From Acidobacteriaceae bacterium (GTDB taxonomy: Bacteria; Acidobacteriota; Terriglobia; Terriglobales; Acidobacteriaceae): a DNA stretch of 60,467 nt. Location: contig JANXUC010000040.1 of assembly GCA_025352065.1 (NCBI GenBank), positions 1 to 60,467 of the forward strand, written 5' to 3'. The translations under genes were made by a program, and so were the position numbers. The first letter of the stretch is position 1; every line of letters begins with the position of its first letter. Below are positions 21,399 through 53,005 of this stretch, one piece after another. The notes under the pieces were generated by a model that was not told where the DNA came from, made no database searches, and saw only the letters and a list, made by a program, of their open reading frames with translations.

Positions 21399-22637
21399 AT
21401 GACCGTCCAACCCACGCCACCCAGTCTTCTGCATCCGTTGCAAGGAATCAAAGTGTTAGACCTGTCCCGCGTGCTCGCAGGTCCGTGGGCGGGGCAACTG
21501 TTGGCCGACTATGGAGCGGATGTCATCAAGGTTGAGCGCCCGGGAACTGGCGACGATACTCGCGCCTGGGGTCCGCCTTTTGCTCGCGATAGCCACGGCA
21601 ATTCCCTTCCGCTCGAATCTGCATACTACCTGAGCGTCAATCGCGGCAAGCGATCCATCGCCTTGGATATCACGACACCATATGGGCAAGAAGTCGTCCG
21701 CGATCTCGCACGGCGTTCGGACATTCTCCTTGAAAACTACAAGGTAGGAGGGCTCGTCCAATACGGCCTGGACTACGAATCCCTTCGCGTGCTAAACCCT
21801 CGACTAATCTATTGTTCCATAACTGGATTTGGGCAGACGGGCCCACTAGCGAAACGCGCTGGCTATGACTTGATGATTCAAGCCATGGGCGGACTCATGA
21901 GTATAACGGGAGAGCCTGATTCGCAACCGGGAGGCGGTCCGCAGAAAGTTGGGGTTGCGGTGGTCGACATTCTGACGGGGGTGTACGCCGTGAGCGCTAT
22001 CCTTGCTGCGCTTCACCAACGCGAATCTACCGGCAAGGGTCAACATATAGATGCCGCGCTCTTTGACGTGCAGCTGGCGATGCTCGCCAATCAGGGTTCC
22101 AACTATCTGGTGGGCGGAATGGTGCCGGAGCGCATTGGAACAGCGCATCCCAACATCGTTCCCTACCAGCGATTCGCGACCAAGGACGGATTTCTGGTGC
22201 TCGCAGTTGGCACAGAAGGCCAGTTTGCGATCGTCTGCAAGCTGATCGGACTGCCCACTTTGCCGCAGGATGCTCGCTTTTCAACCAATGCAGTTCGGGT
22301 GCGCAACCGAAACGAACTAGTACCTATTTTTGAGGCAGCATTTCTAGAACATAACACTAAAGACTGGATAAATTTTTTGGAACAATCAAATATTCCCTGC
22401 GCGCCGGTTCGCGACTTGGGCGAAGTATTTGCCGACCCCCAAGTCGCAGCCCGCGGCATGATTTTGGAATCGGAGCACCCGGACGCTGGCACAATTCGGA
22501 CCGTGGCTCAGCCCATGAAGTTTTCAGCGGCCTCATCCCAAAACACCAGAGTGCCGCCGCGGCTCGGCGAGCACACAAAAGAAATCTTGCAGGAACTCGG
22601 TTACGACGAAGAAAAGATTAAGAGCTTGAACTTGTAG
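21399..22637 (+). CDS. Class III CoA-transferase (CaiB/BaiF family)
   Basis: A 412-residue cytoplasmic enzyme. Family III signatures are VLDLSRVLAGPWAGQLLADYGADVIKVERPGTGDDTR (given here by position, about residues 20-55) and YYLSVNRGKRSIALD. The catalytic Asp is in RAGYDLMIQAMGG, and there is a C-terminal VRDLGEVFADPQV segment. Such enzymes move CoA between carboxylic acids through aspartyl-CoA, as in formyl-CoA, carnitine or succinyl-CoA transferases. The substrate pair is unknown and the neighbours give no clue. The start ATG matches the family N-terminus (LHPLQGIKVLDLSR). Confidence 0.92.
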   Translation: MTVQPTPPSLLHPLQGIKVLDLSRVLAGPWAGQLLADYGADVIKVERPGTGDDTRAWGPPFARDSHGNSLPLESAYYLSVNRGKRSIALDITTPYGQEVVRDLARRSDILLENYKVGGLVQYGLDYESLRVLNPRLIYCSITGFGQTGPLAKRAGYDLMIQAMGGLMSITGEPDSQPGGGPQKVGVAVVDILTGVYAVSAILAALHQRESTGKGQHIDAALFDVQLAMLANQGSNYLVGGMVPERIGTAHPNIVPYQRFATKDGFLVLAVGTEGQFAIVCKLIGLPTLPQDARFSTNAVRVRNRNELVPIFEAAFLEHNTKDWINFLEQSNIPCAPVRDLGEVFADPQVAARGMILESEHPDAGTIRTVAQPMKFSAASSQNTRVPPRLGEHTKEILQELGYDEEKIKSLNL

Positions 22638-31070: not shown

Positions 31071-31112
31071 TTTCACCCCTGAATAAGTTTGCTGACTCAT
31101 TGTCTTGCCGAG

Positions 31113-32291: not shown

Positions 32292-32342
32292 TTCAGCTGC
32301 TCCTCGCCTTCTCTAGTCACAACTTACGAGTTCACAAAAGAG

Positions 32343-33446: not shown

Positions 33447-33613
33447 TGTCAAAATCAAAATTCTCCCGGTTCGGTCGTTGCCATTTGCCTCGGCGTTCGA
33501 CAACAAGTGCGTACAGAGACATCGTAAAGCAAGTTATTGTAGCGCGATTCAGCAGCGCTACCAACTGTTGTATTCTGGTCGAGACCAGACTGACAGTTTC
33601 TCTATCTTCAGCC

Positions 33614-35958: not shown

Positions 35959-36026
35959 AAGTTTTTATCGGCGCCCAAATTAAGGAACGCTCCGGCACCG
36001 AGTCTAGTGATCGGACGGGAACAGTG

Positions 36027-36695
36027 TCAAGAAGCGCTTCGCACAGCGGCAAAGAAGACTTGCAGCTTGGCGCGATCAAGCTTGCCGCCTGTCCTTGCTC
36101 CCGAGCAAATATCCAGGCCGAAGGAACCAACTTCCTGCACAGCCGCTAGCGCGTTCGTAGCGTTCAAGCCTCCGGCCAAAAACATGGGCACTGAAATCCG
36201 TTCACGAATTTCGCGGCTCAGCGCCCAGTCATGTTTTCTGCCCGTTCCGCCCAACTCCTTAACCGGAAGCGATTGATTGCCGGAATCGAGCAAAATCGCA
36301 TCGACTCCTCGATCCACGGCGACAGCTTCCTCAATCGACTCCCGGCCTGTTACGTGGATCACCTGAATCAGGGAGACCCCAGGCAGGGCCCGCTTCAGCT
36401 CGCGATGAGTCCCCGGAGTAATCCGGTCGCAGATCTGAATGCAGTTCGTTCGACACCGACGCTGCTGATCGATGATGACCTGCGCGTCCTGCCTGGAGGT
36501 GAGCAGAAAAGTCGCGACAGGCGGTGGCACAGTAGCTGCAATCTCCGCAATGAGTTCGTCGCTGATCACGCCCGGCCCGCTGGGCATGTAGGAAACCAAG
36601 CCAATCGCCGATGCACCAAGTTCGACGGCGAGCGCAGCTTCTTCGATGCTGCTGATGCAGCAGACCTTGACTCTCGGAGCGCTTGTAATCTTCAT
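36027..36695 (-). CDS. Phosphoribosylanthranilate isomerase-like protein (TrpF fold)
   Basis: A 222-residue TIM-barrel protein of the TrpF family. TrpF normally begins K-(I/V)-C-G-I-T. Here it is VKVCCISSIEEAALAVELGA, so the catalytic Cys is kept but the next Gly is Cys. The likely acid Asp is in DAILLDSGNQ, and phosphate-binding ends are visible in LAGGLNATNALAAV and GLDICSGART. No tryptophan genes are nearby; it lies between the ALDH (22 bp away) and ribokinase in a sugar-phosphate operon. It may act on an aminated or phosphorylated (deoxy)ribose compound, or be a stray trpF. The catalytic residues argue that it is active. Confidence 0.8.
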   Translation of the reverse strand: MKITSAPRVKVCCISSIEEAALAVELGASAIGLVSYMPSGPGVISDELIAEIAATVPPPVATFLLTSRQDAQVIIDQQRRCRTNCIQICDRITPGTHRELKRALPGVSLIQVIHVTGRESIEEAVAVDRGVDAILLDSGNQSLPVKELGGTGRKHDWALSREIRERISVPMFLAGGLNATNALAAVQEVGSFGLDICSGARTGGKLDRAKLQVFFAAVRSAS

Positions 36696-36717
36696 GTTTC
36701 AAAAAGCAGGTACGACG

Positions 36718-39096: not shown

Positions 39097-39135
39097 GCGC
39101 TTCGATTCGATCCTTCCCTGTTCAAGCCTTCCTTG

Positions 39136-40188
39136 CTACGCCAGCGGATGCCGATAACCGGCTGAATATCTGCCCGTTACGTGGTGCTCCAGTTGCCGCT
39201 CAATATCGTTGAGCAACCCGCTGGCGCCAAATCGGAACAGATCTGCCTTCATCCACGGAGTTCCCAGTTCTTCCTTCATCAGCCCCAGCCAATCGATGGA
39301 CTGCTTGGCCGTGCGAATTCCGCCAGCAGGCTTGAAGCCAACAGCCATGCGGGTTTCCTGCGCATATTCGCGAATCGCCCGCGCCATCACCAGCCCCACC
39401 GGAAGCGTCGCATTTGTCGGTTCTTTCCCCGTCGAAGTCTTGATGAAATCCGCGCCCGCCATCATCGCCACAAAGCTGGCACGCGCCACATTCCGCAGCG
39501 TGAGTAAATCGCCCGTACCGAGAATCGCCTTCATGTGCGCTTTGCCGCAGGCTTGCTTGAAGGTCGCAACCTCGTTGTACAACTCCTGCCACTTCCCCTC
39601 AAACACGTATGCGCGAGTGATGACGATATCGATTTCGTCAGCTCCTGCTTCCACTGAGCGCCGAATTTCGGCAATGCGTTCTTCCATCGGAGAAAGCCCA
39701 GCCGGAAATCCCGTCGAAACCGCTGCCACCTTGATGCCGCTACCTTCGAGCGCGCGAGCCGCTGTCTCCACAAAGCGGTGATACACGCAAACTGCTGCGA
39801 CTTTGATTCCGAGACTTTCGATCTCAAGACGTCTTACAAGCTCTTGTTCGATGGGCTGGCGAGCCTTGGCGCAAAGCCGCCGCACGCGCTCGTCAGTGTC
39901 GTCGCCGGAGAGGGTCGTGAGATCCATGCAGGTAATGGCGCGGAGCAGCCATGCCGCCTGCCAATCTTTCTTCACCGAGCGTCGCGCTACGTGGGATTGC
40001 GCCCTCCGCTCGACTGCGCTGGTGTTTACCCGCACCCTTGCCACACGTTCGAGGTCCAGAGGTATGCCGCGATTTGCTACCAACGGGATGCCGCGAAGGT
40101 CCGCCACAGGATGGTCCCCATGCGCCAAAGGAGAGCCATTCTTAGAGTCGCCGGTCATGGCTGAACTGGTTATAGGCGGTCGCGACAT
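39136..40188 (-). CDS. deoC: Deoxyribose-phosphate aldolase, eukaryote-like long form
   Basis: A 350-residue enzyme from ATG 40188 (an ATG at 40158 is possible). It cleaves 2-deoxyribose 5-phosphate to glyceraldehyde 3-phosphate and acetaldehyde. The Schiff-base lysine is in DFIKTSTGKEPTNA (Lys250) and the second active lysine in VGFKPAGGIRTAK (Lys286). The text DLTTLSGDDT, the KEELGTPW.KADLFRFGAS segment and the DIERQLEHHVTGRY end resemble the animal-type DERA. They differ from the short bacterial form of about 220-260 residues. It heads the sugar operon and is divergent from the fourth nucleoside hydrolase, with 84 bp between. Confidence 0.95.
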   Translation of the reverse strand: MSRPPITSSAMTGDSKNGSPLAHGDHPVADLRGIPLVANRGIPLDLERVARVRVNTSAVERRAQSHVARRSVKKDWQAAWLLRAITCMDLTTLSGDDTDERVRRLCAKARQPIEQELVRRLEIESLGIKVAAVCVYHRFVETAARALEGSGIKVAAVSTGFPAGLSPMEERIAEIRRSVEAGADEIDIVITRAYVFEGKWQELYNEVATFKQACGKAHMKAILGTGDLLTLRNVARASFVAMMAGADFIKTSTGKEPTNATLPVGLVMARAIREYAQETRMAVGFKPAGGIRTAKQSIDWLGLMKEELGTPWMKADLFRFGASGLLNDIERQLEHHVTGRYSAGYRHPLA

Positions 40189-40272
40189 CGCTTTGAATTG
40201 TACGGCAAACAGCGTGGCCCGGACAGTTTGGCCTTGACACTGACTTCTTTTCAAGACTACTCTTCGTGGCGA

Positions 40273-41382
40273 ATGAAATTCAGGAGACAGACGATCCTGC
40301 CCTTACAAAGAAGCGCCCGCCCTCAGTCCTCGCTGACCCATTTCGTAGCCCTGCTAGCGTTTGCGCTGATCGTTCAAGCGACGTTGTTCGGTACCTCCGC
40401 CGCAGCCGCTGCGAAGAAGATTATCTTCGATACCGACCCTGGCAGTGATGATGCGATGGCGCTCATGCTGGCCCTCAACTCCCCCGAACTCGATGTGCGC
40501 GCCATCACCGTAGTTCCCGGAAATGTGACCGCGAGTCAGGGTTTAGAAAATGCCTTGAAGATGGTGTCTTTGGCACAGCGCTGCGATATTCCCGTTGCCG
40601 CAGGCGCCCAGCACCCGCTCTTCCAAAAGCTCATCACGGCTGAGTTTTGGCATGGCAAGAACGGCTTGGCCAACGTCGAACTGCCCGCTAGCAAATGCGA
40701 AGTGGACGCACGTTTCGGCCCTGATCTGATCATTCAACTGATTCACGCTTCGCCGCACGAAATCACGCTGGTGCCCGTCGGCCCGCTCACCAATATTGCG
40801 CTGGCTGTGCTCAAAGATCCTTCTATTGTTCCATTAGTGAAAGATGTCATCATAATGGGCGGATCCATCAAGGGCGGCAACGTAAACGCATCCGCTGAAG
40901 CGAATATATACAACGATCCAGAAGCCGCGCAGATCGTTTTCCAGGCTGGCTGGACCGTCACCATGGTGGGGCTGGATGTCGGCGACAAGACTCTGCTCAC
41001 CCACCAATATCTTGACGAACTGGGCAAAATGCATGGCCCGGTCAATGATTTCATCCACAGCGTCGCGGCCTACTTGATCGACCTTTCGGCTCAATTCAAC
41101 TCACCCGGAACTCCAATGTACGATCCGCTGGCAGTTGGAGTCGCGATTGACGCGACGTTGGTGAAGGCACCGGAAATGCATGTCGACGTTGAGACTCGCG
41201 GCGAGTTTACGCGCGGAGAGACCGTTGCCAACCGTCAAGGTTACGTCGAGCGCAACGTCCTGCGCGGCGACCGCTATGTCATCGAAGGTGCCGACAAAGT
41301 GGTTCCGAACGCCAAAGTCTGCACTGAAGTGGATGCGGCGCGCTTCCTGAAGCTTTTCGTTTCTAGAATTCAAGGAAAATAG
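40273..41382 (+). CDS. Exported nucleoside hydrolase, canonical motif (paralogue D)
   Basis: A 369-residue protein. ATG 40273 precedes a basic N-region and a hydrophobic signal (VALLAFALIVQATLFGTSAAA). The Ca2+ site IIFDTDPGSDDAMALMLALN is canonical. It also has ITVVPGNVTASQGLENALK, VPVGPLTNIALAVL, ANIYNDPEAAQIVF and MYDPLAVGVAIDA, with the fourth-ligand Asp; Tyr stands where many enzymes have His. It probably cleaves nucleosides outside the cytoplasm. It is followed 48 bp later by the GRP/ureide-permease-like carrier in the same direction, which may import a product. Confidence 0.92.
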   Translation: MKFRRQTILPLQRSARPQSSLTHFVALLAFALIVQATLFGTSAAAAAKKIIFDTDPGSDDAMALMLALNSPELDVRAITVVPGNVTASQGLENALKMVSLAQRCDIPVAAGAQHPLFQKLITAEFWHGKNGLANVELPASKCEVDARFGPDLIIQLIHASPHEITLVPVGPLTNIALAVLKDPSIVPLVKDVIIMGGSIKGGNVNASAEANIYNDPEAAQIVFQAGWTVTMVGLDVGDKTLLTHQYLDELGKMHGPVNDFIHSVAAYLIDLSAQFNSPGTPMYDPLAVGVAIDATLVKAPEMHVDVETRGEFTRGETVANRQGYVERNVLRGDRYVIEGADKVVPNAKVCTEVDAARFLKLFVSRIQGK

Positions 41383-41430
41383 ACCTTTCCCGGGAACGAA
41401 GACACAAGATCGGGACAACGAGGAAAACAA

Positions 41431-42408
41431 ATGTTTACGCCACACAGTCTGAATCTGGCGCTGATGATGATGATTACCAGCGCAGTTTGCTGGGGATCTT
41501 GGGCGAACACCTACAAAGGCGTGAAGAACTACCGCTTTGAGTTGTTTTATTGGGACTACGCCGTCGGCATTTTTCTGATCTCGCTGGTGCTGGCTCTTAC
41601 CATGGGTAGCAGCGGCCACGATTCTTCCAGCTTCCTGAACAACGTTAGTTCCGCGGACACTTCCAACATCATCTACGCCCTAATCGGAGGCGTGGTGTTT
41701 AACCTCGCCAACTTATTGTTAGTAGCGGCCATCGATATGGCTGGGCTCGCGGTGGCATTCCCTATCTCCATCGGGATCGCCTTGGTAGTCGGAGTGGTGC
41801 TGAACTACATACAGCAACCAAAAGGAAGCGCCTTGTTTCTCGCACTCGGCGTGTTGTGCGCGTTTGTTGCGGTCGTGCTGGACGGCAAAGCTTATGGGGC
41901 CATGGCGCAGGCCGGACGATCAGTCTCCAAGAAGAGCGTCATAACCTGCATCGTTTCTGGCGTCCTGATGGGCCTGTGGAGCCCGCTTATGACCCATGCC
42001 ACGACTCGCGGGAACTCGCTCGGACCCTACAGCGCCGCGGTTTTCCTGACGCTGGGAGCGCTGCTTTCCTGTTTCATCTGGAATATTTACTTCATGAAGA
42101 ACCCACTCGTCGGAGAGCCTGTGAACTTCAGCGGATTCTTCCGCGCCCCCGCCTCTGCACATATGTTGGGACTTCTGGGCGGAGTGATTTGGGGTACGGG
42201 TACCGTCTTCTATTCGGTGGCTGGAAGTTTCACCGGATTCGCAATTTCCTACGCTATCGGACAATCTGCGCCCATGGTCGCCGCGTTGTGGGGAATCTTC
42301 GCGTGGAAGGAATTTAAAGGAGCGGGCTCATCCGCGAAGATGTACCTGACTCTCATGTTCATTTTCTATGCACTGGCCATTGCGCTAGTCGCCCATGCCA
42401 ACGGCTAG
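41431..42408 (+). CDS. GRP/ureide-permease-like DMT transporter
   Basis: A 325-residue, about ten-helix inner-membrane protein of the drug/metabolite transporter superfamily. The N-terminal helix has MMITSAVCWGSWANTYKGV followed by FELFYWDYAVG. Two inverted halves are visible, with AFPISIGIALVVGVVLNYI in the first and AISYAIGQSAPMVAALWGIF in the second. The nearest recognisable groups are GRP sugar permeases (RbsU, RhaT-like) and plant ureide permeases that carry allantoin and uracil. Placed after an exported nucleoside hydrolase, it should import either ribose or a nucleobase. A GAGGAAAAC stretch just upstream can serve as the ribosome site. It is convergent with the NCS2 gene, 2 bp apart. 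Confidence 0.8.
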   Translation: MFTPHSLNLALMMMITSAVCWGSWANTYKGVKNYRFELFYWDYAVGIFLISLVLALTMGSSGHDSSSFLNNVSSADTSNIIYALIGGVVFNLANLLLVAAIDMAGLAVAFPISIGIALVVGVVLNYIQQPKGSALFLALGVLCAFVAVVLDGKAYGAMAQAGRSVSKKSVITCIVSGVLMGLWSPLMTHATTRGNSLGPYSAAVFLTLGALLSCFIWNIYFMKNPLVGEPVNFSGFFRAPASAHMLGLLGGVIWGTGTVFYSVAGSFTGFAISYAIGQSAPMVAALWGIFAWKEFKGAGSSAKMYLTLMFIFYALAIALVAHANG

Positions 42409-42410
42409 AG

Positions 42411-43733
42411 TTAACCGATCGCCAAATAGACATCGCGCAGAATAAACACAACCGTCAAGATCCAAATTACGACGCTGACATCGCGGAATTTTCCTGCAGC
42501 CACTTTCACCAGCGTGTAGGTAATTACGCCGAAACTCAGTCCGGTAGCGATGCTAAACGTCAACGGCATTGCGAGCACTGTGACGAACGCCGGGAATGCC
42601 TCGGAGAAATCCGGCCAGTCGATATGCGAGACGGATTGCATCATCAGTCCGCCTACCAGCACCAAGGCGGGAGCGGTAGCAAATCCCGGAATCGCAGCCG
42701 CTAGAGGCGAGAAGAACATTGCCAACAGGAACAGCCCCGCTACAAATACGCTACTCAGCCCTGTCCTTGCGCCCGCAGCGACTCCGGCCGCACTCTCAAT
42801 GTAGCTGGTCACGGTTGAAGTCCCAGTTAGAGACCCCACCAAAGTCCCGACGCCGTCCGCCATCAGCACTCGTCCAACCCGCGGAATCTTTCCGTCGATC
42901 ACGAATCCGGCTTGCGCGCAGACTCCCATCAATGTGCCAATGTTGTCGAACAGATCGACGAACAAGAACGCAAAGATAATTTCGAGCAGTCCCAAGTGCA
43001 TAGCGCCGCGCAAATCTAGCTGCAGCAGCGTCCCTGACGGGTGCGGCAGCGAAACCCAGGAACTCGGCGCATGCGCTACACCACGCAGCACTGCCACCAA
43101 CATTGTTCCGGCAATCCCGATGAGAATGCTCCCGTTGACCTTCCTCACCATCAGCACCAGCGTCAGGAGAATTCCGAAGCAAGCCACTTGGACTTCGCGA
43201 TCCGAAAAGTTCCCCAAACCGACAAACGTGGCGGGGTTCGCAACCACCAGCTTGGCATTCCGCAACCCGACGAACGCAATAAACATGCCGATCCCAGCAG
43301 CCGTTGAATGCTTCAGGCAATCCGGAATTCCATTCACGATCTGCTCGCGCACTTTCGTGACTGTGACGAGGATGAATAAAACTCCCGAGAAGAAAATCAC
43401 GCCCAGAGCCGTCTGCCAGGGGATGTGCATACCCAGACAAACTGAGTAGGTAAAATAGGCGTTCAACGACATGCCCGGCGCCAGAGCGATGGGATAGTTG
43501 GCATACAGCCCCATCACCAAAGTAGCGACGGCAGCGGACATGCACGTCGCGAACACAACACCCTCGGCGGGCATGCCAGTCTGTGACAAGATCTGAGGAT
43601 TTACTACGACGATGTAAGCCATCGTCATAAACGTGGTCAGGCCGCCAATGAATTCCTGGCGGATGGTGGTCTGGTTTTCCAGCAGGCTGAAGTATTGATC
43701 GAGGAATCCGTTGGAGGCGTTGGGTCCTGTCAT
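42411..43733 (-). CDS. NCS2-type nucleobase permease (AzgA/PbuG group)
   Basis: A 440-residue membrane protein with about 12-14 helices. AzgA-like signatures are EFIGGLTTFMTMAYIVVVNP near the start, MGLYANYPIALAPGMSLNAYF, and a half-repeat VDLFDNIGTLMGVCAQAG. A further one is GVGTLVGSLTGTSTVTSYIESAAGVAAGARTG (by position, about residues 298-330). This group carries adenine, guanine and hypoxanthine with protons. Here it would bring in the bases freed outside the cytoplasm. It is transcribed away from the molybdenum hydroxylase operon, with 199 bp between the two starts, which probably holds both promoters. Confidence 0.92.
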   Translation of the reverse strand: MTGPNASNGFLDQYFSLLENQTTIRQEFIGGLTTFMTMAYIVVVNPQILSQTGMPAEGVVFATCMSAAVATLVMGLYANYPIALAPGMSLNAYFTYSVCLGMHIPWQTALGVIFFSGVLFILVTVTKVREQIVNGIPDCLKHSTAAGIGMFIAFVGLRNAKLVVANPATFVGLGNFSDREVQVACFGILLTLVLMVRKVNGSILIGIAGTMLVAVLRGVAHAPSSWVSLPHPSGTLLQLDLRGAMHLGLLEIIFAFLFVDLFDNIGTLMGVCAQAGFVIDGKIPRVGRVLMADGVGTLVGSLTGTSTVTSYIESAAGVAAGARTGLSSVFVAGLFLLAMFFSPLAAAIPGFATAPALVLVGGLMMQSVSHIDWPDFSEAFPAFVTVLAMPLTFSIATGLSFGVITYTLVKVAAGKFRDVSVVIWILTVVFILRDVYLAIG

Positions 43734-43932: not shown

Positions 43933-44769
43933 TTGTACTTTCGGCCCAAGACGCTTCTCGAAGCTACTCAGACGCTTGCTGGGGAGCACGCCCAAATCTT
44001 GTCGGGCGGCACGGATTTCTTCCCTGCGCTGGGCGAGCGGTGCGTCCAAGGCGCTGTGCTGGATGTCTCGGGAATCTCGGAGCTAAAAGGAATCACTCGA
44101 GAAGAGAACCATCTTCGCATCGGAGGCCTCACGACCTGGAGCGAGATTGTCGCGGCTCCGCTGCCGCGCTGCTTGGACGCTTTGAAGCTAGCGGCGCGAG
44201 AAGTCGGCGGCGTCCAAATTCAAAATCGCGGCACGATTGCTGGAAATCTCTGTAATGCATCTCCGGCCGCCGATGGAGTACCGCCTCTATTGGCGCTGAA
44301 CGCGGAAGTAGAGTTGTCTTCTACACACGGAACACGCTTCCTGCAGTTGTCGGAATTTATTACAGGCAACCGAAAGACCCTGCGCCGCGCCAATGAGATT
44401 CTGAGCTGCGTTCGCGTGCCTCTCGGTCTCGAACATGCTGCCTCGACATTCCTGAAGCTCGGAGCCCGCCGCTATCTGGTCATCTCCATCGCAATGGTTG
44501 CGGTAGTTTTAAAGGCTGACGCTGCGGGGCATATTTCCGACGCGCGCGCCGCGGTCGGGTCGTGCTCCGGCAAAGCCCAAAGATTGATGGAATTGGAACA
44601 CGACTTGATCGGAGCACGCGCGCGGGCCGGAATCGGGTCCATCGCGCAAGAAAGACATCTTAGCCCCTTGTCTCCGATCAGCGACGTGCGAGCGACCGCC
44701 GACTACCGCCTCTCTGCAGCTCTAACCCTGCTCGCACGCGCTCTGGACAACTGCGCGGGGAGTTGTTGA
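43933..44769 (+). CDS. Molybdenum hydroxylase FAD subunit (xanthine/nicotinate dehydrogenase type)
   Basis: A 278-residue FAD_binding_5/CO_deh_flav_C protein, apparently from TTG 43933 (MYFRPKTLLEATQTL). The FAD site shows ILSGGTDFFPALGERC and IQNRGTIAGNLCNASPAADGVPPLLAL. The C-terminal domain follows (TFLKLGARRYLVISIAMVAVVL). It passes electrons from the Fe-S/Mo protein to NAD+ or another acceptor. First gene of a seven-kilobase plus-strand operon; its TGA is 2 bp before the next ATG. FAD subunits of purine and of N-heterocycle hydroxylases look alike, so it does not decide the substrate. Confidence 0.92.
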   Translation: MYFRPKTLLEATQTLAGEHAQILSGGTDFFPALGERCVQGAVLDVSGISELKGITREENHLRIGGLTTWSEIVAAPLPRCLDALKLAAREVGGVQIQNRGTIAGNLCNASPAADGVPPLLALNAEVELSSTHGTRFLQLSEFITGNRKTLRRANEILSCVRVPLGLEHAASTFLKLGARRYLVISIAMVAVVLKADAAGHISDARAAVGSCSGKAQRLMELEHDLIGARARAGIGSIAQERHLSPLSPISDVRATADYRLSAALTLLARALDNCAGSC

Positions 44770-44771
44770 CG

Positions 44772-47555
44772 ATGGCGACGACGCTCGCCTCCGAGGCCCA
44801 GGCTTTCACGACGATCCACTTTTCCGTCAACGGAAAGAGCGTAAGCCCAGCAGTCTCTCCGACCGAGAGATTATCCCGAGTCTTGCGCGAATCGCTCGGT
44901 CTTGCGGGAACCAAAGTCGGTTGTGACGCCGGAGATTGCGGTGCCTGCACGGTCTTGCTGGACGGAGAACAAGTCTGTTCATGCTTGATCGCAGCCGGGC
45001 AAGTTGAAGGCTGCGAGATCACGACGGTTGAAGGGCTCGCCGAACGCGCACCGATTTTCGACCGCTTGCAGAATTCCTTTCTGCGACACGGCGCCGCGCA
45101 ATGCGGCATCTGCACTCCGGGTATGCTGGTCGCGGCAACGGCTCTTCTGGAACGTGACAGCGCTCCTAGCGAGGAAGCTGTAAAAGATGCCCTTGCCGGC
45201 GTTCTCTGCCGTTGCACCGGCTACCGGAAGATCATTACTGCCGTGATGGACGCGGGATTGAATCCGGCAATTCAAGCATCACCCGCTGCCGGAAACGCCG
45301 TCGGCACCCGGCTTGTCCGCCTGGACGGTCGCGGGAAAGTAAACGGCACCGAAATCTTCGGAGCCGATGAATTTCCTGCGAATGCCCTCTCGCTTCATGT
45401 GATCCGCAGCCCGCACGACCGCGCTAGCTTCCACTTCGGCGATCTCCAATTTTACGTCGCACAACATCCCGGCATCGCTAGGGTGCTAACCGCCAAGGAT
45501 GTTCCAGGAATCAATTGCTACGGCGTGATTCCAAGATTCGCGGATCAACCTGTGTTTGCAGAAACGGAAGCAAGATTCCGCGGCGAGGCAGTCGCCGCCG
45601 TAGTCGGTGACGCCGACGTTTTAGAATCGATGGACTGGTCTTCATTCCCCATCACCTGGGACAAACTGCCAGCGATCACGACAATCGAGGCAGCCCTGGA
45701 ATCGGATGCTCAGCGCATTCATTCCAAACGAGAGCAGAATATTCTAGTGAGCGGCAGGGTAGTTCGCGGAGATGTCGAGAAAGCGCTGACGGAATCCGCC
45801 ATAGTTGTCGCTGGCGAATACGAAACCGGATTCATTGAACACGCGTATATCGAGCCCGAGGCAGGCTGCGCGCGTCGCGTGGGCGATACCATCGAGGTTC
45901 AAGCCTGCACGCAATCTCCCTACATGGATCGCGACGACATCGCGAAGATTCTCGGCATTGCTCCGGACAAAGTACGCATCATTCCCACGGCGGTCGGCGG
46001 AGGTTTCGGCGCCAAGCTGGACTTATCCGTTCAGCCATTTATTGCGCTCGCAGCCTGGAAGCTCAATCGCCCTGTCCGTCTGATCTATTCCAGGAACGAG
46101 TCGATTCTTTCGACCACCAAACGCCACCCCTCGCGCATTCGCATGCGGGCTGGCGCGACTCAGGAAGGTCGGCTTCTGGCCGTGGATTTTGCTGCCGACT
46201 TCAACACGGGCGCTTATTCTTCCTGGGGGCCGACGGTAGCGGCACGAGTTCCAGTGCATGCGTCGGGCCCTTATAATGTTCCGAATTACAGAGCACTCAC
46301 GCGGGCCATCCATACGAACCTAATTCCAGCTGGAGCGTTTCGCGGATTCGGCGTACCACAAGCCGCCATCGCGCAAGAGCAACTCTATGACGACCTAGCG
46401 GACCGATTGAAGATCGATCGCCTCGAATTCCGAATCCTAAACGCGCTCGACGGCACAACGCCCACCGTTACCGGGCAGATTTTAGGCCAAGGCACTAGCA
46501 TTCGCGCCTGTTTTGAGGCGCTGAAGCCGAAGTGGCAAGCAGCTCGCGCCGAATGCGCCTCCTACAACGATCGAGTGGAAGGATCTTTGCGCAAGGGAGT
46601 CGGAATTGCAGGCATGTGGTACGGATGCGGCAACACTTCCCTGCCCAATCCATCCACGATTCGCGTTGGCTTGAAGCCCGACGGAAGGATCGCGCTGCAC
46701 CAGGGCGCGGTCGATATCGGCCAAGGCTCCAACACAATCATCACGCAGATTTGTGCGGATGCTTTGCACGTGCCCATCGACCGCTTTGATTTGCTTTCCG
46801 GCGATACCGCGATCTCCCCCGACTGCGGAAAAACCTCGGCCTCTCGCCAGACTTTTGTTACGGGAAAAGCAGCTTACATTGCAGGCACCTCACTTCGGAC
46901 AGCGTTGCTGGCATTGGCGCAAACGACAGATCCTGCCGAGATCACGCTCGGGGATGGATCTTTTTCAGTCAAGAATAGCGACGGGTTCCATCGCATCGAA
47001 TTACGCGATCTCCAGCTTGATGCTCACGGCTATGTTCTAGCTGCGGAAGGTACTTTCGACCCGCCAACCAGCCCTCTCGACGAAAATGGACAAGGCTCTC
47101 CCTACGCCGTTTTCGGCTTCGGAGCGCACATGGCGGAAGTCGTTGTCGATCTGGAACTCGGCACGGTCAAGGTCACAAAGATCATGGCCGCGCATGATGT
47201 TGGCCGTGCTATCAACCCCACTCTAGTTGAAGGCCAGATTGAAGGCGGCGCCGCGCAGGGCCTCGGCATGGCATTGATGGAAGAATTCATCCCAGGCAAG
47301 GGTGAGAATCTTCACGACTACCTGATCCCAACAATCGGCGACATTCCCGTCATCGAATCCATCTTGATCGAAGACGCTTCACCCATCGGCCCTTACGGCG
47401 CTAAAGGAATCGGCGAACAGGCCGTCATTCCTACTGCCCCAGCCATCCTGAACGCGATCCACGATGCCATCGGCGTGCGCGTGCGAAGACTCCCGGCCAC
47501 ACCCGACCGCCTTCGCGCCGCTATCCTCGCCTATAAGGACACACCGCGTGACTGA
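44772..47555 (+). CDS. Molybdenum hydroxylase, fused [2Fe-2S] and molybdopterin subunits
   Basis: A 927-residue protein. Residues 1-165 are the two-cluster ferredoxin-like part: Cys51, 56, 59, 71 for the plant-type [2Fe-2S] and Cys111, 114, 146, 148 for the second. From about 175 it is the XdhB/CoxL-like catalytic subunit. It has ETGFIEHAYIEPEAG, VGGGFGAKLDLSVQ, GAFRGFGVPQAAIA, PDCGKTSASRQTFVTG and the late active-site Glu segment GAKGIGEQAV. The fusion of small and large chains is less common than separate genes. Enzymes of this kind hydroxylate purines, nicotinate and related rings next to N. With the downstream ring reductase and enamidase, nicotinate 6-hydroxylation is plausible. Purine oxidation is the alternative. 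Confidence 0.92.
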   Translation: MATTLASEAQAFTTIHFSVNGKSVSPAVSPTERLSRVLRESLGLAGTKVGCDAGDCGACTVLLDGEQVCSCLIAAGQVEGCEITTVEGLAERAPIFDRLQNSFLRHGAAQCGICTPGMLVAATALLERDSAPSEEAVKDALAGVLCRCTGYRKIITAVMDAGLNPAIQASPAAGNAVGTRLVRLDGRGKVNGTEIFGADEFPANALSLHVIRSPHDRASFHFGDLQFYVAQHPGIARVLTAKDVPGINCYGVIPRFADQPVFAETEARFRGEAVAAVVGDADVLESMDWSSFPITWDKLPAITTIEAALESDAQRIHSKREQNILVSGRVVRGDVEKALTESAIVVAGEYETGFIEHAYIEPEAGCARRVGDTIEVQACTQSPYMDRDDIAKILGIAPDKVRIIPTAVGGGFGAKLDLSVQPFIALAAWKLNRPVRLIYSRNESILSTTKRHPSRIRMRAGATQEGRLLAVDFAADFNTGAYSSWGPTVAARVPVHASGPYNVPNYRALTRAIHTNLIPAGAFRGFGVPQAAIAQEQLYDDLADRLKIDRLEFRILNALDGTTPTVTGQILGQGTSIRACFEALKPKWQAARAECASYNDRVEGSLRKGVGIAGMWYGCGNTSLPNPSTIRVGLKPDGRIALHQGAVDIGQGSNTIITQICADALHVPIDRFDLLSGDTAISPDCGKTSASRQTFVTGKAAYIAGTSLRTALLALAQTTDPAEITLGDGSFSVKNSDGFHRIELRDLQLDAHGYVLAAEGTFDPPTSPLDENGQGSPYAVFGFGAHMAEVVVDLELGTVKVTKIMAAHDVGRAINPTLVEGQIEGGAAQGLGMALMEEFIPGKGENLHDYLIPTIGDIPVIESILIEDASPIGPYGAKGIGEQAVIPTAPAILNAIHDAIGVRVRRLPATPDRLRAAILAYKDTPRD

Positions 47556-49017
47556 CCACGCTATCCGATGCGACGCTTGCCCCGTCCTCTGCTACATCAA
47601 GCCCGGGCGCTCTGGCTCCTGCGACCGCTACGGCAATCAGGAGGGCAAACTCGTCCGCCTCGACCCTCATGTCGTCTTGGATCGTTCCCTAACACGCGGC
47701 GATTCGATCGTTCCATTTGCAGGTCAAGCATCGGAGGGCGGAGAAGATTGGGACGGCAACCTCCTGCGCAATTCCGAAACTTTTATCACCGCCATAGGCG
47801 CGGGAACTACCTATCCCGACTACAAGCCCGCTCCGTTCATCATCTCGACTGAAATTCAAGGGATCGACATGGTCACGGTCGTGACCGAGGGAATTTTCAG
47901 CTACTGCGGAGTCAAAGTAAAGATCGATACCGACCGTCATCTCGGTCCGGAAACCAGCCTCGTTCGCGCGCAAGGCGAACCCGTCGGTCACGTCACGACC
48001 AATGAATATGGGTCGCAAATGCTCTCCCTCGGCGGCGTTCGACACCTCACCGGAGGTAGCCGGCGCGAAGGGACCGTTACCTGCGAAACTCTGCTGAGGC
48101 TCTGCGACAGAAAGGCCGTCGAGCTCGCGATTGACGGCGGCACCACCGTCCAAGTGCAAGCCGGACAGCCTCCTGTCGTCGATGGCGTTCGCGAAGAACG
48201 TATGCGCGTCGGCTGCGGCTCCGCCACCATCGGAATGTTCGCGAAGCAGTGGTATGGCAAAGTGGACGAGGTTGTCGTCGTCGACGATCACATCACGGGA
48301 GTACTCTCTCAGCATCAGGCGGGAAAGCTGCTAGGCGTTCCAGAAACAGGTCTTCAGATCAAAGGCCGTCGTTCCACTCCGGGACGTTATTTCAGAGTTG
48401 CCGAACCGGGAACCGCTTGGGGCGGAACCGATATCGAAGACCCTCTTTCGATATTGAATCCCTTCGATCCGAAGGTTGCCCGGGCGGGACTGCGACTGTT
48501 GATGGTCAGCACCACGGGAGAACACTCCGCATTTTTCGAACTCGATGAAGCACTCCGCCCAGTCGAAATGGAATTGCCTGAGATCCTTCGCAAATCCGTG
48601 GAACGTATTCGGGAAAACTGCGAACCAGCCATGTGCAGTGTTCTATTCATGGCAGGCGCTGGAGGTTCGCTGCGCGCGGGCGTAACCGAAAACCCAGTCC
48701 GCCTGACGCAATCGGTGAAAGATGCGCTCACCCGCGTCACCTGCGGCGGCGCGCCAGTTTATATCTGGCCCGGCGGCGGCATCACGCTCATGGTCGACGT
48801 CATGCGCATGCCGGAAAACGCTTTCGGCTACGTGCCCACGCCCGCGATCGTGGCTCCTATCGAGTTCACACTCAAGCTGGAAGATTATGCCGCCCTCGGT
48901 GGACACATGGATCACGTTCGTCCGCTCAAATCTCTTGTCCCAGATGCGGAACGTCGTCATGTCGCGGCAAAGGATGAGAATCCGTGGCCGCTTTCGCCTT
49001 CGAGGCCAAAGCCATGA
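47548..49017 (+). CDS. 6-hydroxynicotinate reductase-like protein
   Basis: A 489-residue cytoplasmic protein from GTG 47548, overlapping the upstream stop by 8 bp. A long in-frame extension into the previous gene is ignored. The N-terminus carries four cysteines (Cys8, 11, 15, 25 in RCDACPVLCYIKPGRSGSCD), likely binding an Fe-S cluster. The body has strongly patterned blocks: AIGAGTTYPDYKPAPF, VVTEGIFSYCGVKVKIDTD, YGSQMLSLGGVRHLTGG, RVGCGSATIGMFAKQW, GRRSTPGRYFRVAEPG and PGGGITLMVDVMRMP. By memory of the family this matches proteins annotated as 6-hydroxynicotinate reductase, which in Eubacterium barkeri uses ferredoxin to reduce the hydroxylated pyridine ring. The adjacent enamidase supports this. 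The true substrate here is unproven. Confidence 0.8.
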   Translation: MTDHAIRCDACPVLCYIKPGRSGSCDRYGNQEGKLVRLDPHVVLDRSLTRGDSIVPFAGQASEGGEDWDGNLLRNSETFITAIGAGTTYPDYKPAPFIISTEIQGIDMVTVVTEGIFSYCGVKVKIDTDRHLGPETSLVRAQGEPVGHVTTNEYGSQMLSLGGVRHLTGGSRREGTVTCETLLRLCDRKAVELAIDGGTTVQVQAGQPPVVDGVREERMRVGCGSATIGMFAKQWYGKVDEVVVVDDHITGVLSQHQAGKLLGVPETGLQIKGRRSTPGRYFRVAEPGTAWGGTDIEDPLSILNPFDPKVARAGLRLLMVSTTGEHSAFFELDEALRPVEMELPEILRKSVERIRENCEPAMCSVLFMAGAGGSLRAGVTENPVRLTQSVKDALTRVTCGGAPVYIWPGGGITLMVDVMRMPENAFGYVPTPAIVAPIEFTLKLEDYAALGGHMDHVRPLKSLVPDAERRHVAAKDENPWPLSPSRPKP

Positions 49018-49913
49018 GCGCACCAGCGATTTCAGTAACCAGAGCGCAGATCGCGTTCCTGCCCGATCAACGACGTCTTCACATGCAAGACGGGCCTATT
49101 GACTTAATCGTTGAAGCCTTCGCCGATCCCGGTAATATCAGCAACGCTTACGATGCCGCAGCGCAACGCTTTGTATCAATATTGGATGAACTTTGCCAGG
49201 ATCTGCCTCTTTTGCGCCAGCCCGCAACGCGCGACAGTACTCTGCCACTCGGGCCAGTTGCCCGCCGTATGATGCTGGCCGTGAAGCCTTATGCCAAAGT
49301 AAATTTCATTACTCCCATGGCCGCAGTGGCGGGCGCGGTGGCCGAGGAAATTCTTCTTTCCATGACCAATGCGGCGAATCTCGTGCGCGCCTATGTGAAC
49401 AACGGCGGAGATATCGCTCTCCATCTAAACCCTGGCGCACGCTGTACGATAGGCACCGTAGAAACCAAAGAGGGCCAGGCCCCTAGCCTGTTTGCCACGA
49501 CTTCGTTGGAGGCCGCAATGCCCGTGCGCGGCATCGCGACCAGCGGTTGGCCAGGACGGAGTTTTTCTCTCGGCATTGCGGACGCGGTCACCGTTCTTGC
49601 AAAAACCGCGACCATGGCAGATGCGGCGGCGACAATTATTGCGAACGCGGTTGATCTGCCCGGACACCCCAACATCACTCGCGTTCCAGCTAAAGAACTC
49701 ACTCCTGATTCTGATCTCGGAACGCGCTTGGTGACGCAGCGCGTCGGATATCTCTCCGCGAAAGAAATCGACTCAGCTCTTGACGCAGGAAGCATCGTCG
49801 CCGAATCCCTCGCTTCTCGAGGCCTGATCCACTCCGCCGCCCTTCGTTTACAAGGACAAACTCGCGTCGTCGCGCTCGACACCCAATATTGTGGAGGACT
49901 TTTGCATGCCTGA
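49014..49913 (+). CDS. UPF0280 family protein (ApbE-like fold)
   Basis: A 299-residue protein starting at ATG 49014, which overlaps the previous stop as ATGA. UPF0280 segments are HMQDGPIDLIVEAFAD, the YAKVNFITPMAAVAGAVAEE block, YVNNGGDIALHLNPGA, and IATSGWPGRSFSLGIADAVTVLA. The NNGGDIA loop, the ATSG segment and the late ADAAATIIANAV helix parallel ApbE, the FMN transferase of flavoproteins. Its place between a ring reductase and DUF1185 genes, with coupled starts, argues for a role in the same reaction or in maturing the reductase. No enzyme activity is established for the family. I saw no consensus ApbE target motif in the reductase. Confidence 0.82.
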   Translation: MSAPAISVTRAQIAFLPDQRRLHMQDGPIDLIVEAFADPGNISNAYDAAAQRFVSILDELCQDLPLLRQPATRDSTLPLGPVARRMMLAVKPYAKVNFITPMAAVAGAVAEEILLSMTNAANLVRAYVNNGGDIALHLNPGARCTIGTVETKEGQAPSLFATTSLEAAMPVRGIATSGWPGRSFSLGIADAVTVLAKTATMADAAATIIANAVDLPGHPNITRVPAKELTPDSDLGTRLVTQRVGYLSAKEIDSALDAGSIVAESLASRGLIHSAALRLQGQTRVVALDTQYCGGLLHA

Positions 49914-50490
49914 AGTAAAGATAAGAAAGAGACTCACCGTCGTCGAAGAAATCTTCCACGAAGGCGGCCCCGTCGCCCAAACGCCTCTGCGGCGAGTCGC
50001 GGCGCTAGCGGTTATTCATAACCCATTCGCTGGCCGTTACGTCGAAGACATCTCCGCCTTCATGGACGACCTGAAACCGCTCGGCCTCGAGATGGCTCGA
50101 TCCATGCTTAAGGCTTTAGGCGGTGACGTTCACTCCGTCGCAGGATACGGCAAAGGCGCCATCATCGGTTCCGCCGGAGAGCTCGAACACGGTGCCCTCT
50201 GGCACGCTCCCGGCGGGTACGGCATGCGCGAAGTTTTGAACGGCGCGAAAGCCATCGTCGCATCCACAAAAAAAGTCGGCGGCCCCGGCACCCGCCTTGA
50301 TGTTCCAATAACGCATATCAACGCTTCCTACGTGCGCAGCCACTTCGATGCCATGGAAGTCGGCATCAACGATGCCCCGCGCGCCGACGAAATGCTGCTC
50401 GCGCTGGTGATGACCACCGGAGCCCGCATCCACGCCCGGACAGGCGGATTGAAAACTTCTGAAATCAAAGGCGAAGACGGACTTCGATGA
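49906..50490 (+). CDS. DUF1185/AA_synth family protein, copy 1
   Basis: A 194-residue protein from ATG 49906, overlapping the upstream gene by 8 bp. It has NPFAGRYVEDISAFMDDL, YGKGAIIGSAGELEHGALW, STKKVGGPGTRLDVPITH, RSHFDAMEVGINDAPRADE and the end EIKGEDGLR. The family was named for amino-acid synthesis without proof; as I recall, its structures fall in the chorismate-mutase-like/YjgF-like fold class. It shares most of these blocks and its exact length with the next gene. In this operon a step on the reduced or opened ring, or assembly with copy 2 as a heteromer, is the likeliest role. Confidence 0.85.
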   Translation: MPEVKIRKRLTVVEEIFHEGGPVAQTPLRRVAALAVIHNPFAGRYVEDISAFMDDLKPLGLEMARSMLKALGGDVHSVAGYGKGAIIGSAGELEHGALWHAPGGYGMREVLNGAKAIVASTKKVGGPGTRLDVPITHINASYVRSHFDAMEVGINDAPRADEMLLALVMTTGARIHARTGGLKTSEIKGEDGLR

Positions 50491-50509
50491 GGCTGGATGA
50501 GGCGAAAAG

Positions 50510-51094
50510 ATGAACGCTAAAATCCGCAAGATTGCGGTTTTCCTGGAAGAAGTTCACAGTGAAATGGGCCGCGCAATTCACCCTCCGACGCGCCGCGCCG
50601 CAGCCGTCGCCGTCATCGAAAATCCGTTCGCCGGAAAATACGTCGAAGACTTATCCGACCTGATGACCATCGGCGAAGAACTCGGCGAACTCCTAACGCA
50701 GCGCGCCGTGGATGCCCTCGGCATTCCCGGCCCCACCGCCGAAAGCTACGGCAAAGCCGCCGTCGTTGGAGAAAATGGCGAACTCGAACACGCCGCCGCC
50801 ATTCTGCATCCCAAACTAGGCACGCCGGTGCGCAAAGTCCTCGGCAAAGGCGCGGCGCTCATTCCGTCGTCTAAAAAGCGCGGAGGCCTGGGCACCGTGC
50901 TCGACATCCCTCTCGGCCACAAAGATGCCGCGTTCGTCCGCAGTCATTTCGATGGCATGGAGGTCCGTCTCAACGACGCCCCCCGCGCCAACGAAATCAT
51001 GGTCGCCATCGCCGTCACCGACAGCGGCCGCCCGTTAGCAAGAGTTGGCGGGTTGACCAAAGATCAAATCAAGGGAGAAGACGGGCTAAGATAA
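50510..51094 (+). CDS. DUF1185/AA_synth family protein, copy 2
   Basis: A 194-residue paralogue of the preceding gene, 19 bp downstream of it. Shared blocks are ENPFAGKYVEDLSDLM, YGKAAVVGENGELEHAAAI, SSKKRGGLGTVLDIPLGH, RSHFDGMEVRLNDAPRANE and QIKGEDGLR. Differences cluster in residues 10-30 and 95-112. The two equal-length copies side by side suggest an old duplication kept as two subunits or two specificities. It is last gene of the plus-strand operon and faces the enamidase gene with a 16-bp gap. Confidence 0.85.
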   Translation: MNAKIRKIAVFLEEVHSEMGRAIHPPTRRAAAVAVIENPFAGKYVEDLSDLMTIGEELGELLTQRAVDALGIPGPTAESYGKAAVVGENGELEHAAAILHPKLGTPVRKVLGKGAALIPSSKKRGGLGTVLDIPLGHKDAAFVRSHFDGMEVRLNDAPRANEIMVAIAVTDSGRPLARVGGLTKDQIKGEDGLR

Positions 51095-51110
51095 GACGAC
51101 GCGTGCCCGT

Positions 51111-52310
51111 CTAGGGCAACCCCACAACTTCCGGCACCCGCGTCGCCGGAGGCGTATTGCGACTCCGTTGAGTGCTAACGATCCCGTCGATCATCACCAT
51201 CCCAATCCCCGGCAGGTCGCCAAGCTGAATACTCTCCAGCACGGTCTTTCCTGCCGAATGCTGGGCACGATCCAGAAACACAAACGTCGCATCCCGCCCA
51301 GCTTCAACAATCCCGCAATCGAGTGCCCGTATTCTGGCAGTATTGCCGGTGGCCAGGCACACGGCCACTTCAGCTGGGAGATCTCCCAGCGACGACAGCA
51401 GCGCAATCATCCGCAGGATGCCCAGCGGCTGCACTCCTGACCCCGCTGGTGAATCCGTACCCAAAATTACGCGGTCCAAGCAACCGAGTTCCTTGGCCAT
51501 GCGTAGAGTCAGCAGCCCTGCCCTCTCATTGCCGTTGTGGACGATTTCCAGGGCCCGCGACGAGGTTTCACATAGGCAAACGATCTGATCGTCAGGAAGG
51601 GCCGTGTGGCCTCCGTTGATATGCCCTATAACATCGGCGTCGGCGGCGAGGACGATATCCTTGTCGATTAGGCTCGATCCTGGAATCGATGGCCCTCCGG
51701 TGTGAATTGTGCTCTGAATCCCATATTTTCGTGCCCAACCGACCATTTCCCGTGCCGTGCGGCCATCTTTGACGCTTCCTAGCCCTACTTCGCCCAACAT
51801 TGTCACGCCAGCAGCGGCTAAGTCCTTGAAATCCTCCTCGACCATGCCGTGCTCAATCACAGGCGCCCCCGCGTGAATCTTGATGCCTCCCGGACGAAAC
51901 GCCGAAAACGCGCGCTGCGCGAAGATGGCCATCGCCTTCAGGCCGACGATATCCCTAGGACGCCCCGGCGTATGCACCTCGCCAGCGGAAATCATGGTTG
52001 TCACGCCGCCGTGCAGGTAGCTGTCGATCCAGCCAATCTGGTTCTGCCGAGGCGTCCAATCGCCCGCCACCGGATGCACGTGGCTATCAATCAGCCCCGG
52101 AGCCAGCGCCGTCCCTTTGGCGTCGATGACAGTGGTTGCACCCTCAGCGTCGATGTCTTTTTCTTTTCCGACCGCGCGAATTTTTCCGTTCACCGCCAAA
52201 ACTGTATCCGCGTCGTTGATCGGGCTTTTCAAATCGCCGGTCAGAAGCAATCCAATATTTCGAATCACAACGCGGGTGTCGGACTTCGGTTTTTCTGGAT
52301 CGGCGCTCAT
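51111..52310 (-). CDS. Enamidase-like amidohydrolase
   Basis: A 399-residue amidohydrolase from ATG 52310 (the frame is open further but the extra codons are not family-like). It reads like Eubacterium barkeri enamidase: VIRNIGLLLTGDLKSPI, GLIDSHVHPVAGDWTPRQ, HGGVTTMISAGEVHTPGRP, EVGLGSVKDG, HTGGPSIPGSS, GHINGGHTA, ILGTDSPAGSG and a tail SRNTPPATR. Likely metal ligands are His77, His79, Glu174, His203, His230 and Asp286. Enamidase hydrolyses the cyclic enamide of 6-oxo-tetrahydronicotinate to 2-formylglutarate and ammonia. With the reductase gene close by, this is the strongest pointer to the pathway. It is divergent from the hydrolase at 52397. Confidence 0.88.
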   Translation of the reverse strand: MSADPEKPKSDTRVVIRNIGLLLTGDLKSPINDADTVLAVNGKIRAVGKEKDIDAEGATTVIDAKGTALAPGLIDSHVHPVAGDWTPRQNQIGWIDSYLHGGVTTMISAGEVHTPGRPRDIVGLKAMAIFAQRAFSAFRPGGIKIHAGAPVIEHGMVEEDFKDLAAAGVTMLGEVGLGSVKDGRTAREMVGWARKYGIQSTIHTGGPSIPGSSLIDKDIVLAADADVIGHINGGHTALPDDQIVCLCETSSRALEIVHNGNERAGLLTLRMAKELGCLDRVILGTDSPAGSGVQPLGILRMIALLSSLGDLPAEVAVCLATGNTARIRALDCGIVEAGRDATFVFLDRAQHSAGKTVLESIQLGDLPGIGMVMIDGIVSTQRSRNTPPATRVPEVVGLP

Positions 52311-52396
52311 ATTTTTCTCAGCTCTTTTCGATTTCGATTTTGCTAAGTCCACACAAAAACTGATACTCTCGCCGCATCTCAAGCTAGGCGGAAATA

Positions 52397-53005
52397 ATGC
52401 TCTCACGCGATGTCGTTTTTTGGGAAGTGGATACTCAGGTGGATTTCATGCTGCCGGATGGCAAGCTTTATGTACCCGGCGCAGAAAAGCTTTTGCCCAA
52501 TATTCAGAAGCTGACACAAGCGGCACGCGATGGACGCGTGCTTCTGGTTTCCCACGGCTGCTACCACATCGCAAACGATCCGGAATTCAGCACCTTTCCG
52601 CCGCACTGCGTGAAAGGCACGCCGGGTGCGGATTTTGTCCCTGAAGCCCTCACTGACAAGATTCTCCGCGTACCGAACGACCCCGCTGGTGCTCCTAAGA
52701 GTCTCACAGGCTATAAGCAAGTCCTCCTGGAAAAACAGACGCTCGACATCTTTGAGAGCCGCCACGTAGCAGAGGTTTTACAGCAGCTTGATCCGAAAAC
52801 TCACTTTGTCGTCTTTGGAGTGGTCACAGAATATTGCGTTCGCTTCGCCGCCAAAGGTTTGCTGGATCGCGGTCGCAAAGTCTCTGTGGTTCAGGATGCG
52901 ATTGAAACGCTCTCGAAGGCGGCTTCAAACGAGACCATTGCCGAATTGAAGGCTAAAGGGGCAAGTATGATCACGACCGGGCAGGCGCTTGCGTTGCTCA
53001 GCTAA
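52397..53005 (+). CDS. Isochorismatase-fold cysteine hydrolase (nicotinamidase-like)
   Basis: A 202-residue cytoplasmic hydrolase with an AGGCGG ribosome site. The catalytic triad is Asp12 (VDTQVDF), Lys113 (LLEKQTLDIF) and Cys147 (VVTEYCVRFAA). The segment FSTFPPHCVKGTPGADF closely resembles nicotinamidases, where this His binds the metal. The usual D-x-H of that site is replaced by SHGCYHIAND, so a standard metal site is not obvious. Nicotinamidases convert nicotinamide to nicotinate, which would feed the neighbouring hydroxylase-reductase-enamidase set. Other family members are carbamoyl or N-formyl hydrolases, so a late ammonia- or carbamate-releasing step is possible. Confidence 0.85.
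   Translation: MLSRDVVFWEVDTQVDFMLPDGKLYVPGAEKLLPNIQKLTQAARDGRVLLVSHGCYHIANDPEFSTFPPHCVKGTPGADFVPEALTDKILRVPNDPAGAPKSLTGYKQVLLEKQTLDIFESRHVAEVLQQLDPKTHFVVFGVVTEYCVRFAAKGLLDRGRKVSVVQDAIETLSKAASNETIAELKAKGASMITTGQALALLS

Follow-up and report, generated by a model that had tools for sequence, protein, structure and literature searches.

The segment at 43933–53005 of the window (the entire 60,467-nucleotide stretch of Acidobacteriaceae DNA that was analysed) carries eight genes, all of them present and open; gene starts were corrected by reading the junctions in the sequence. Six form a series on the forward strand. They encode the FAD subunit of a two-chain molybdenum hydroxylase, a predicted nicotinate 6-hydroxylase (43933..44769; PF00941, E = 4e-40, and PF03450), the fused 2x[2Fe-2S]/Mo-pterin subunit of the same enzyme (44772..47555, ATG start; PF01799, PF02738, PF20256), a short, aerobic form of 6-hydroxynicotinate reductase (Hnr; 47548..49017, GTG start, 489 aa), a UPF0280 protein with an ApbE-like flavin-transferase fold (49014..49913, ATG start; NF003322) and two proteins of the AA_synth family (PF06684, DUF1185): AA_synth-1 (49906..50490, ATG start; PF06684, E = 7e-72) and AA_synth-2 (50510..51094; PF06684, E = 4.5e-74; 2qtp, E = 1e-90). 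An earlier note on this DNA had claimed these genes and their tight spacing, and both were borne out: a 2-bp gap separates the two hydroxylase genes, the FeS/Mo gene overlaps Hnr by 8 bp, Hnr overlaps UPF0280 by 4 bp (ATGA), and UPF0280 overlaps AA_synth-1 by 8 bp. AA_synth-2 follows after a 19-bp gap and is therefore not coupled by overlap. The enamidase gene (Ena; 51111..52406, reverse strand), whose product is predicted to open the ring of 1,4,5,6-tetrahydro-6-oxonicotinate, is convergent to the operon; its 5′ end is overlapped by a forward-strand gene for a nicotinamidase-like protein of the isochorismatase family (52397..53005).

The FAD-subunit gene also precedes the Mo-chain gene in loci L009, L014, L083 and L084, and the FeS/Mo chain is 56–59% identical to the chains adjoining Hnr in L009, L010 and L014. 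The chain matches chains A, B and D of Eubacterium barkeri nicotinate dehydrogenase (3hrd); its best match among solved structures is an aldehyde oxidoreductase, so that sequence does not prove its substrate specificity. The enamidase (Amidohydro_1) matches the E. barkeri enamidase 2vun over its whole length (E = 7e-108, 44% identity), conserving all of H67, H69, E164, H193, H220 and D276, which we take to be the binuclear metal ligands of 2vun.

The window Hnr, which no Pfam or NCBIfam model matches, is 61–68% identical to plasmid-borne relatives, several of them annotated as 6-hydroxynicotinate reductase, and 40–48% identical to anaerobic Hnr proteins carrying a ferredoxin domain; it belongs to the same family as the Hnr of the E. 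barkeri-type cluster of Acetobacterium bakii (L018). The N-terminal 2[4Fe-4S] ferredoxin domain is present in anaerobic Hnr and absent from the proteins of Alpha- and Betaproteobacteria and of the window. These short forms retain the conserved CxxCxxxCx9C, and cysteines 8, 11, 15, 25 and 223 are invariant in Hnr. Ferredoxin-NADP-reductase genes adjoin several aerobic Hnr clusters; none lies near the window operon, a distant homologue being encoded elsewhere in the genome. The structure model of Hnr is good (pLDDT 86), and it gave no Foldseek match at E 0.001, the best VIA Z being 4.8 over 65 residues. As judged from this model, Hnr is an enzyme with no detected known fold, which does not indicate a new one, because all 489 residues were searched unsplit into domains.

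When an enamidase alignment was used to scan named genomes, 80 loci were obtained, belonging to Bacillota, Desulfobacterota, Pseudomonadota, Armatimonadota, Actinomycetota and Hecatellales archaea, and genes for Hnr, UPF0280, AA_synth, enamidase and molybdenum hydroxylase cluster repeatedly across them. The exact order FAD–FeS/Mo–Hnr–UPF0280–AA_synth–AA_synth with a convergent enamidase recurs in Dongia (L083), and the six-gene order is also found in Sulfitobacter mediterraneus (L009); since identical order occurs in unrelated genomes, the arrangement is far beyond chance. Other parts vary among Hnr clusters. The hydroxylase consists either of FAD and FeS/Mo chains or of a NicB-like Mo/cytochrome c protein, the ring-opener is either an enamidase or a hydantoinase/oxoprolinase-like pair, and Hnr–UPF0280 is retained where hydroxylase and ring-opener are exchanged. 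The A. bakii cluster runs Hnr, UPF0280, (chemoreceptor), a hydroxyisobutyrate-DH-like gene, the Ndh chains, Ena, AA_synth, B12 mutase, PrpF, MutL, an ICL-family gene and aconitase, a set equal to the nicotinate gene set that Alhapel reportedly described for E. barkeri in 2006.

These neighbourhoods revise part of the earlier note, which had called the system a candidate undescribed one and had counted UPF0280 and the two DUF1185 proteins as three extra components. UPF0280 and AA_synth recur with Hnr in aerobes and anaerobes alike, and their place inside the E. barkeri-type cluster of A. bakii makes them standard parts. The same gene order exists in Alphaproteobacteria, and a nicotinate cluster of the Hnr type, from Azorhizobium caulinodans and Bradyrhizobiaceae, has been in print since 2012 (PMC3511419); it includes an ABC transporter as well as two conserved proteins listed as unknown. 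The co-occurrence extends well outside the host lineage, and the window enamidase falls with that of the nicotinate pathway, not with enzymes of a different pathway.

Taken as a whole, the operon is best explained as an aerobic variant of reductive nicotinate breakdown (probability roughly 0.8). Gene identities, synteny, co-occurrence and the predicted UPF0280 fold are read from sequence; from these we infer the reactions in the host, and a nicotinate pathway is very probable. Nicotinate is the best-supported substrate in view of the enamidase match, the identity of Hnr, the recurring clusters and the E. barkeri-type set in A. bakii. The FAD and FeS/Mo chains would convert nicotinate to 6-hydroxynicotinate, which Hnr would reduce to 1,4,5,6-tetrahydro-6-oxonicotinate; electrons would come from an external ferredoxin system, proposed because the window Hnr has no built-in ferredoxin domain. 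The enamidase would then turn the cyclic enamide into 2-formylglutarate and ammonia. Such action of hydroxylase, Hnr and enamidase in series on a pyridine carboxylate had been suggested before, and both the identity to the E. barkeri enamidase and the cluster synteny support it. Nicotinate may additionally be supplied from nicotinamide by the isochorismatase-family protein, the best PDB match of which is the Pyrococcus nicotinamidase 1ilw (E = 1e-16); its Asp/Lys/Cys triad is aligned, and one metal-ligand Asp is replaced by Cys.

Carbon would leave the pathway via glutarate and glutaryl-CoA, as in the Azorhizobium route, rather than through a B12 mutase as in E. barkeri. Single searches of the genome for a full-length B12-dependent 2-methyleneglutarate mutase returned B12-binding-domain matches only, in agreement with the earlier statement that the later E. 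barkeri steps are absent. A tentative candidate for glutarate activation is a CaiB-type CoA-transferase (21399..22637, forward strand) located 21 kb from the operon, with succinate-glutarate CoA-transferase as its best NCBIfam model at 519 bits, below the cut-off of 750. It is 53% identical to a CoA-transferase beside Hnr in Azorhizobium doebereinerae (L086), which likewise scores best against this model and below the curated cut-off. The missing mutase and the CoA-transferase candidate favour the glutarate exit without proving it, and we regard this route as reasonably likely.

The AA_synth tree contains two deep clades. One of them (support 100/100) comprises, besides AA_synth-1, only proteins of aerobic proteobacteria; the other contains AA_synth-2, the single copies of anaerobic nicotinate clusters and SPO0826 (2qtp). 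Copy 1 of the window groups with its Dongia counterpart at 98/96, copy 2 more weakly (93/27). SPO0826 has served as an argument for a role in amino-acid metabolism, given its branched-chain-type transporter neighbours. Transporters of this type are common in nicotinate clusters, and in the tree SPO0826 joins the AA_synth-2 protein from the nicotinate cluster of Sulfitobacter (99/92), which calls the Pfam name AA_synth into question.

Outside Hnr clusters, AA_synth genes are accompanied by flavin monooxygenases, alpha/beta hydrolases or amidohydrolases, and aldehyde dehydrogenases, a layout resembling the trigonelline degradation pathway. Rhizobial, roseobacter and Pantoea plasmids, including pSymA (L131–L136), combine AA_synth with an alpha/beta hydrolase, a flavin reductase, an LLM monooxygenase and an aldehyde dehydrogenase; these are likely trigonelline-type operons. 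A Sinorhizobium medicae locus (L125) brings together a BMP-type ABC transporter, two nucleoside hydrolases, an isochorismatase, MarR, an AA_synth-1-type gene and an oxoprolinase, and is possibly a second nicotinamide-riboside-like breakdown locus, with no Hnr annotated in the stretch. Enamidase adjoins AA_synth in two Hecatellales archaea (L066, L069), Hnr not being seen on these short contigs. In two Bacillota loci (L020, L022) AA_synth comes after enamidase, and the stretch fetched contains no Hnr, which suggests that AA_synth is tied to ring opening and not to reduction.

A plausible role for the AA_synth proteins is assistance in handling the reactive, nitrogen-bearing ring-opening product on its way from enamine or imine to aldehyde; we give this specific role a low probability, and a homologue is also known from coumarin degradation, a setting where nitrogen is absent (PMC7913881). 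Their association with many different ring-opening enzymes does suggest that a shared type of intermediate is the target. Alternatively, both proteins could activate or stabilise other enzymes, the function put forward for TgnF, and have no enzymatic part in ring opening. This is a serious contender, though short of even odds: for the DUF1185 homologue TgnF, one paper cites a stimulation of TgnE in the oxidation of succinate semialdehyde, and no activity was found there for HcdD (PMC7913881). Such stimulation can, however, be explained equally by faster formation of the semialdehyde. The activity of a formyl-dicarboxylate decarboxylase was also considered and fits poorly, because anaerobes keep that carboxyl group.

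The association of UPF0280 (NF003322 at 394.9 bits, cut-off 290) with Hnr is much stricter. It lies directly 3′ of Hnr in 64 loci, the exceptions beyond contig ends being L043, L057 (present elsewhere in the locus) and L092. Strong matches to Hnr and strong matches to UPF0280 (NF003322) were found in an identical set of 38 among 240 alphaproteobacterial genomes and in none of the remaining 202, and all 37 same-contig pairs are adjacent, with 27–204 bp between model edges; one further pair is split by contig ends. The nominal chance value of this co-occurrence, 10^-44, overstates independence, since the sampled alphaproteobacterial genomes are related. AA_synth is present in 34 and enamidase in 14 of the 38 Hnr-bearing genomes, so UPF0280 tracks Hnr, and neither the hydroxylase nor the ring-opener.

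Profile comparison with hhalign relates UPF0280 to ApbE (97%, E = 9e-11), ApbE chains turn up in a UPF0280 profile search of the PDB, and PF02424 itself gives weak matches on UPF0280 genes. The structure model (pLDDT 94) aligns with ApbE, Ftp and FmnB structures at Z 14.5–16.2 over 205–222 residues, the next group, uricases, reaching 8.4. UPF0280 keeps the D-x3-T site of ApbE (an Mg site by analogy) and the GGD motif; the HxxDPxTG loop with the catalytic His is a gap in the profile alignment, and the acceptor motif D-x-x-(S/T)-G-x-(S/T) has no conserved instance in 53 Hnr sequences. The host genome holds no other ApbE (PF02424 protein), and the Hnr of E. barkeri was reported, by Alhapel in 2006, to carry a covalent flavin. 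On the strength of the co-occurrence, the ApbE fold, the missing PF02424 protein and the E. barkeri flavin, we propose, at about even odds, that UPF0280 is a flavin transferase which would attach the flavin of Hnr covalently. The missing His loop and acceptor motif keep this role at the level of a proposal, and UPF0280 is accordingly claimed to act like ApbE, not filed as a member of its family.

We consider it rather unlikely that UPF0280 is instead a catalytic or structural partner of Hnr, such as a carrier of FAD or FMN, an electron-transfer partner or an FAD pyrophosphatase, since it conserves the D-x3-T and GGD motifs of ApbE, and the E. barkeri Hnr is said to have been purified on its own with its covalent flavin. 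The one-to-one co-occurrence would nevertheless suit a subunit equally well, the absence of the His loop from UPF0280 and of the acceptor motif from Hnr points the same way, and ApbE-fold proteins include described FAD pyrophosphatases (title of 4xdr). Returning to the flavin-transferase proposal, a wider version can be put forward tentatively: UPF0280 would represent a new cytosolic flavin-transferase sub-type that lacks the ApbE catalytic His and acts on Hnr, and DUF1185 would be a general helper of heterocycle ring opening instead of serving amino-acid synthesis. Relatives of UPF0280 also occur in methanogens and Desulfovibrio (2o34), so that the family has other jobs as well. Literature searches on UPF0280 or on flavin transfer to Hnr found nothing. 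The one-to-one pairing and the flavin-transferase fold make the function of UPF0280 directly testable; if the proposal is true, flavinylating enzymes gain a new branch, and the way in which Hnr obtains its cofactor is explained.

Directly upstream of the operon, positions 29988–43733 hold three nucleoside hydrolases, a ribokinase, an aldehyde dehydrogenase, deoC, a RhaT-like transporter and an NCS2 permease. This nucleoside-use island could provide the operon with nicotinamide by freeing it from the riboside. The NCS2 (Xan_ur_permease) gene (42411..43733, reverse strand; PF00860, E = 1e-54) is divergent from the operon, is not found in other Hnr clusters and is a possible importer for it. The three nucleoside hydrolases, ribokinase, deoC and nucleobase-type permease, together with the likeness that general models give the Mo chain to xanthine dehydrogenases and aldehyde oxidoreductases, would also agree with an operon that degrades another N-heterocycle (a purine, a pyrimidine or a substituted pyridine), its base being supplied by the island. 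We judge this very unlikely: enamidase and Hnr occur in nicotinate-type clusters wherever found, including A. bakii, several Hnr clusters have a NicB-like protein as hydroxylase instead, and the island is also explicable by nicotinamide riboside or general nucleoside use. The purine or pyrimidine substrate allowed for in the earlier note finds no support, all Hnr clusters examined carrying nicotinate-type parts.

Of 395 other genomes sampled from the host phylum, none contains a full-length Hnr; short matches in some genomes of the phylum were set aside, as they cover only about 40–60 N-terminal residues. On this account the block was probably acquired, and we regard it as an old lateral gain, not contamination. 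An assembly artefact, in which a proteobacterial fragment was misjoined to the contig, would agree with the absence from those 395 genomes and with the closest AA_synth relatives lying in Dongia (Alphaproteobacteria), but is scarcely credible given that the operon is close to its flanks in G+C (0.586 against 0.55–0.56) and in GC3 and sits whole, with its convergent enamidase, in mid-contig.

The pathway encoded here is thus ordinary and its host unusual; UPF0280 offers a strong, testable lead and AA_synth a weaker one. What is new here is the flavin-transferase fold of UPF0280 and its exact co-occurrence with Hnr; the nicotinate pathway was known, yet two of its constant proteins have been listed as unknown for years.

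Compared with known systems, UPF0280 shares with ApbE, Ftp and FmnB the whole-length fold, the GGD motif and the D-x3-T site, and differs in lacking the HxxDPxTG catalytic-His loop, while Hnr lacks the classical acceptor motif. Trigonelline operons (TgnF) and SPO0826/BB2672 share the AA_synth family and a ring-opening context with the window, SPO0826 falling in the tree with a nicotinate-cluster AA_synth-2; trigonelline-type operons differ in their monooxygenase-based ring cleavage and have neither Hnr nor UPF0280. The E. barkeri/Acetobacterium system (L018) has hydroxylase, Hnr, enamidase, UPF0280 and AA_synth in common with the window, the last two as seen in Acetobacterium; its own features are a four-chain hydroxylase, the ferredoxin domain of Hnr, a single AA_synth and the B12 mutase/dimethylmaleate branch. 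The A. caulinodans/Bradyrhizobiaceae cluster, which leads from THON to glutarate (PMC3511419), differs from the window in that the latter has a two-chain FAD and FeS/Mo hydroxylase, no ABC transporter and no adjacent reductase, A. doebereinerae (L086) having instead a NicB-like Mo/cytochrome c protein, a ferredoxin-NADP-reductase-like gene and a CoA-transferase beside the cluster. With this cluster the window shares hydroxylase, short Hnr, enamidase, conserved unknown proteins and an aerobic type of host.
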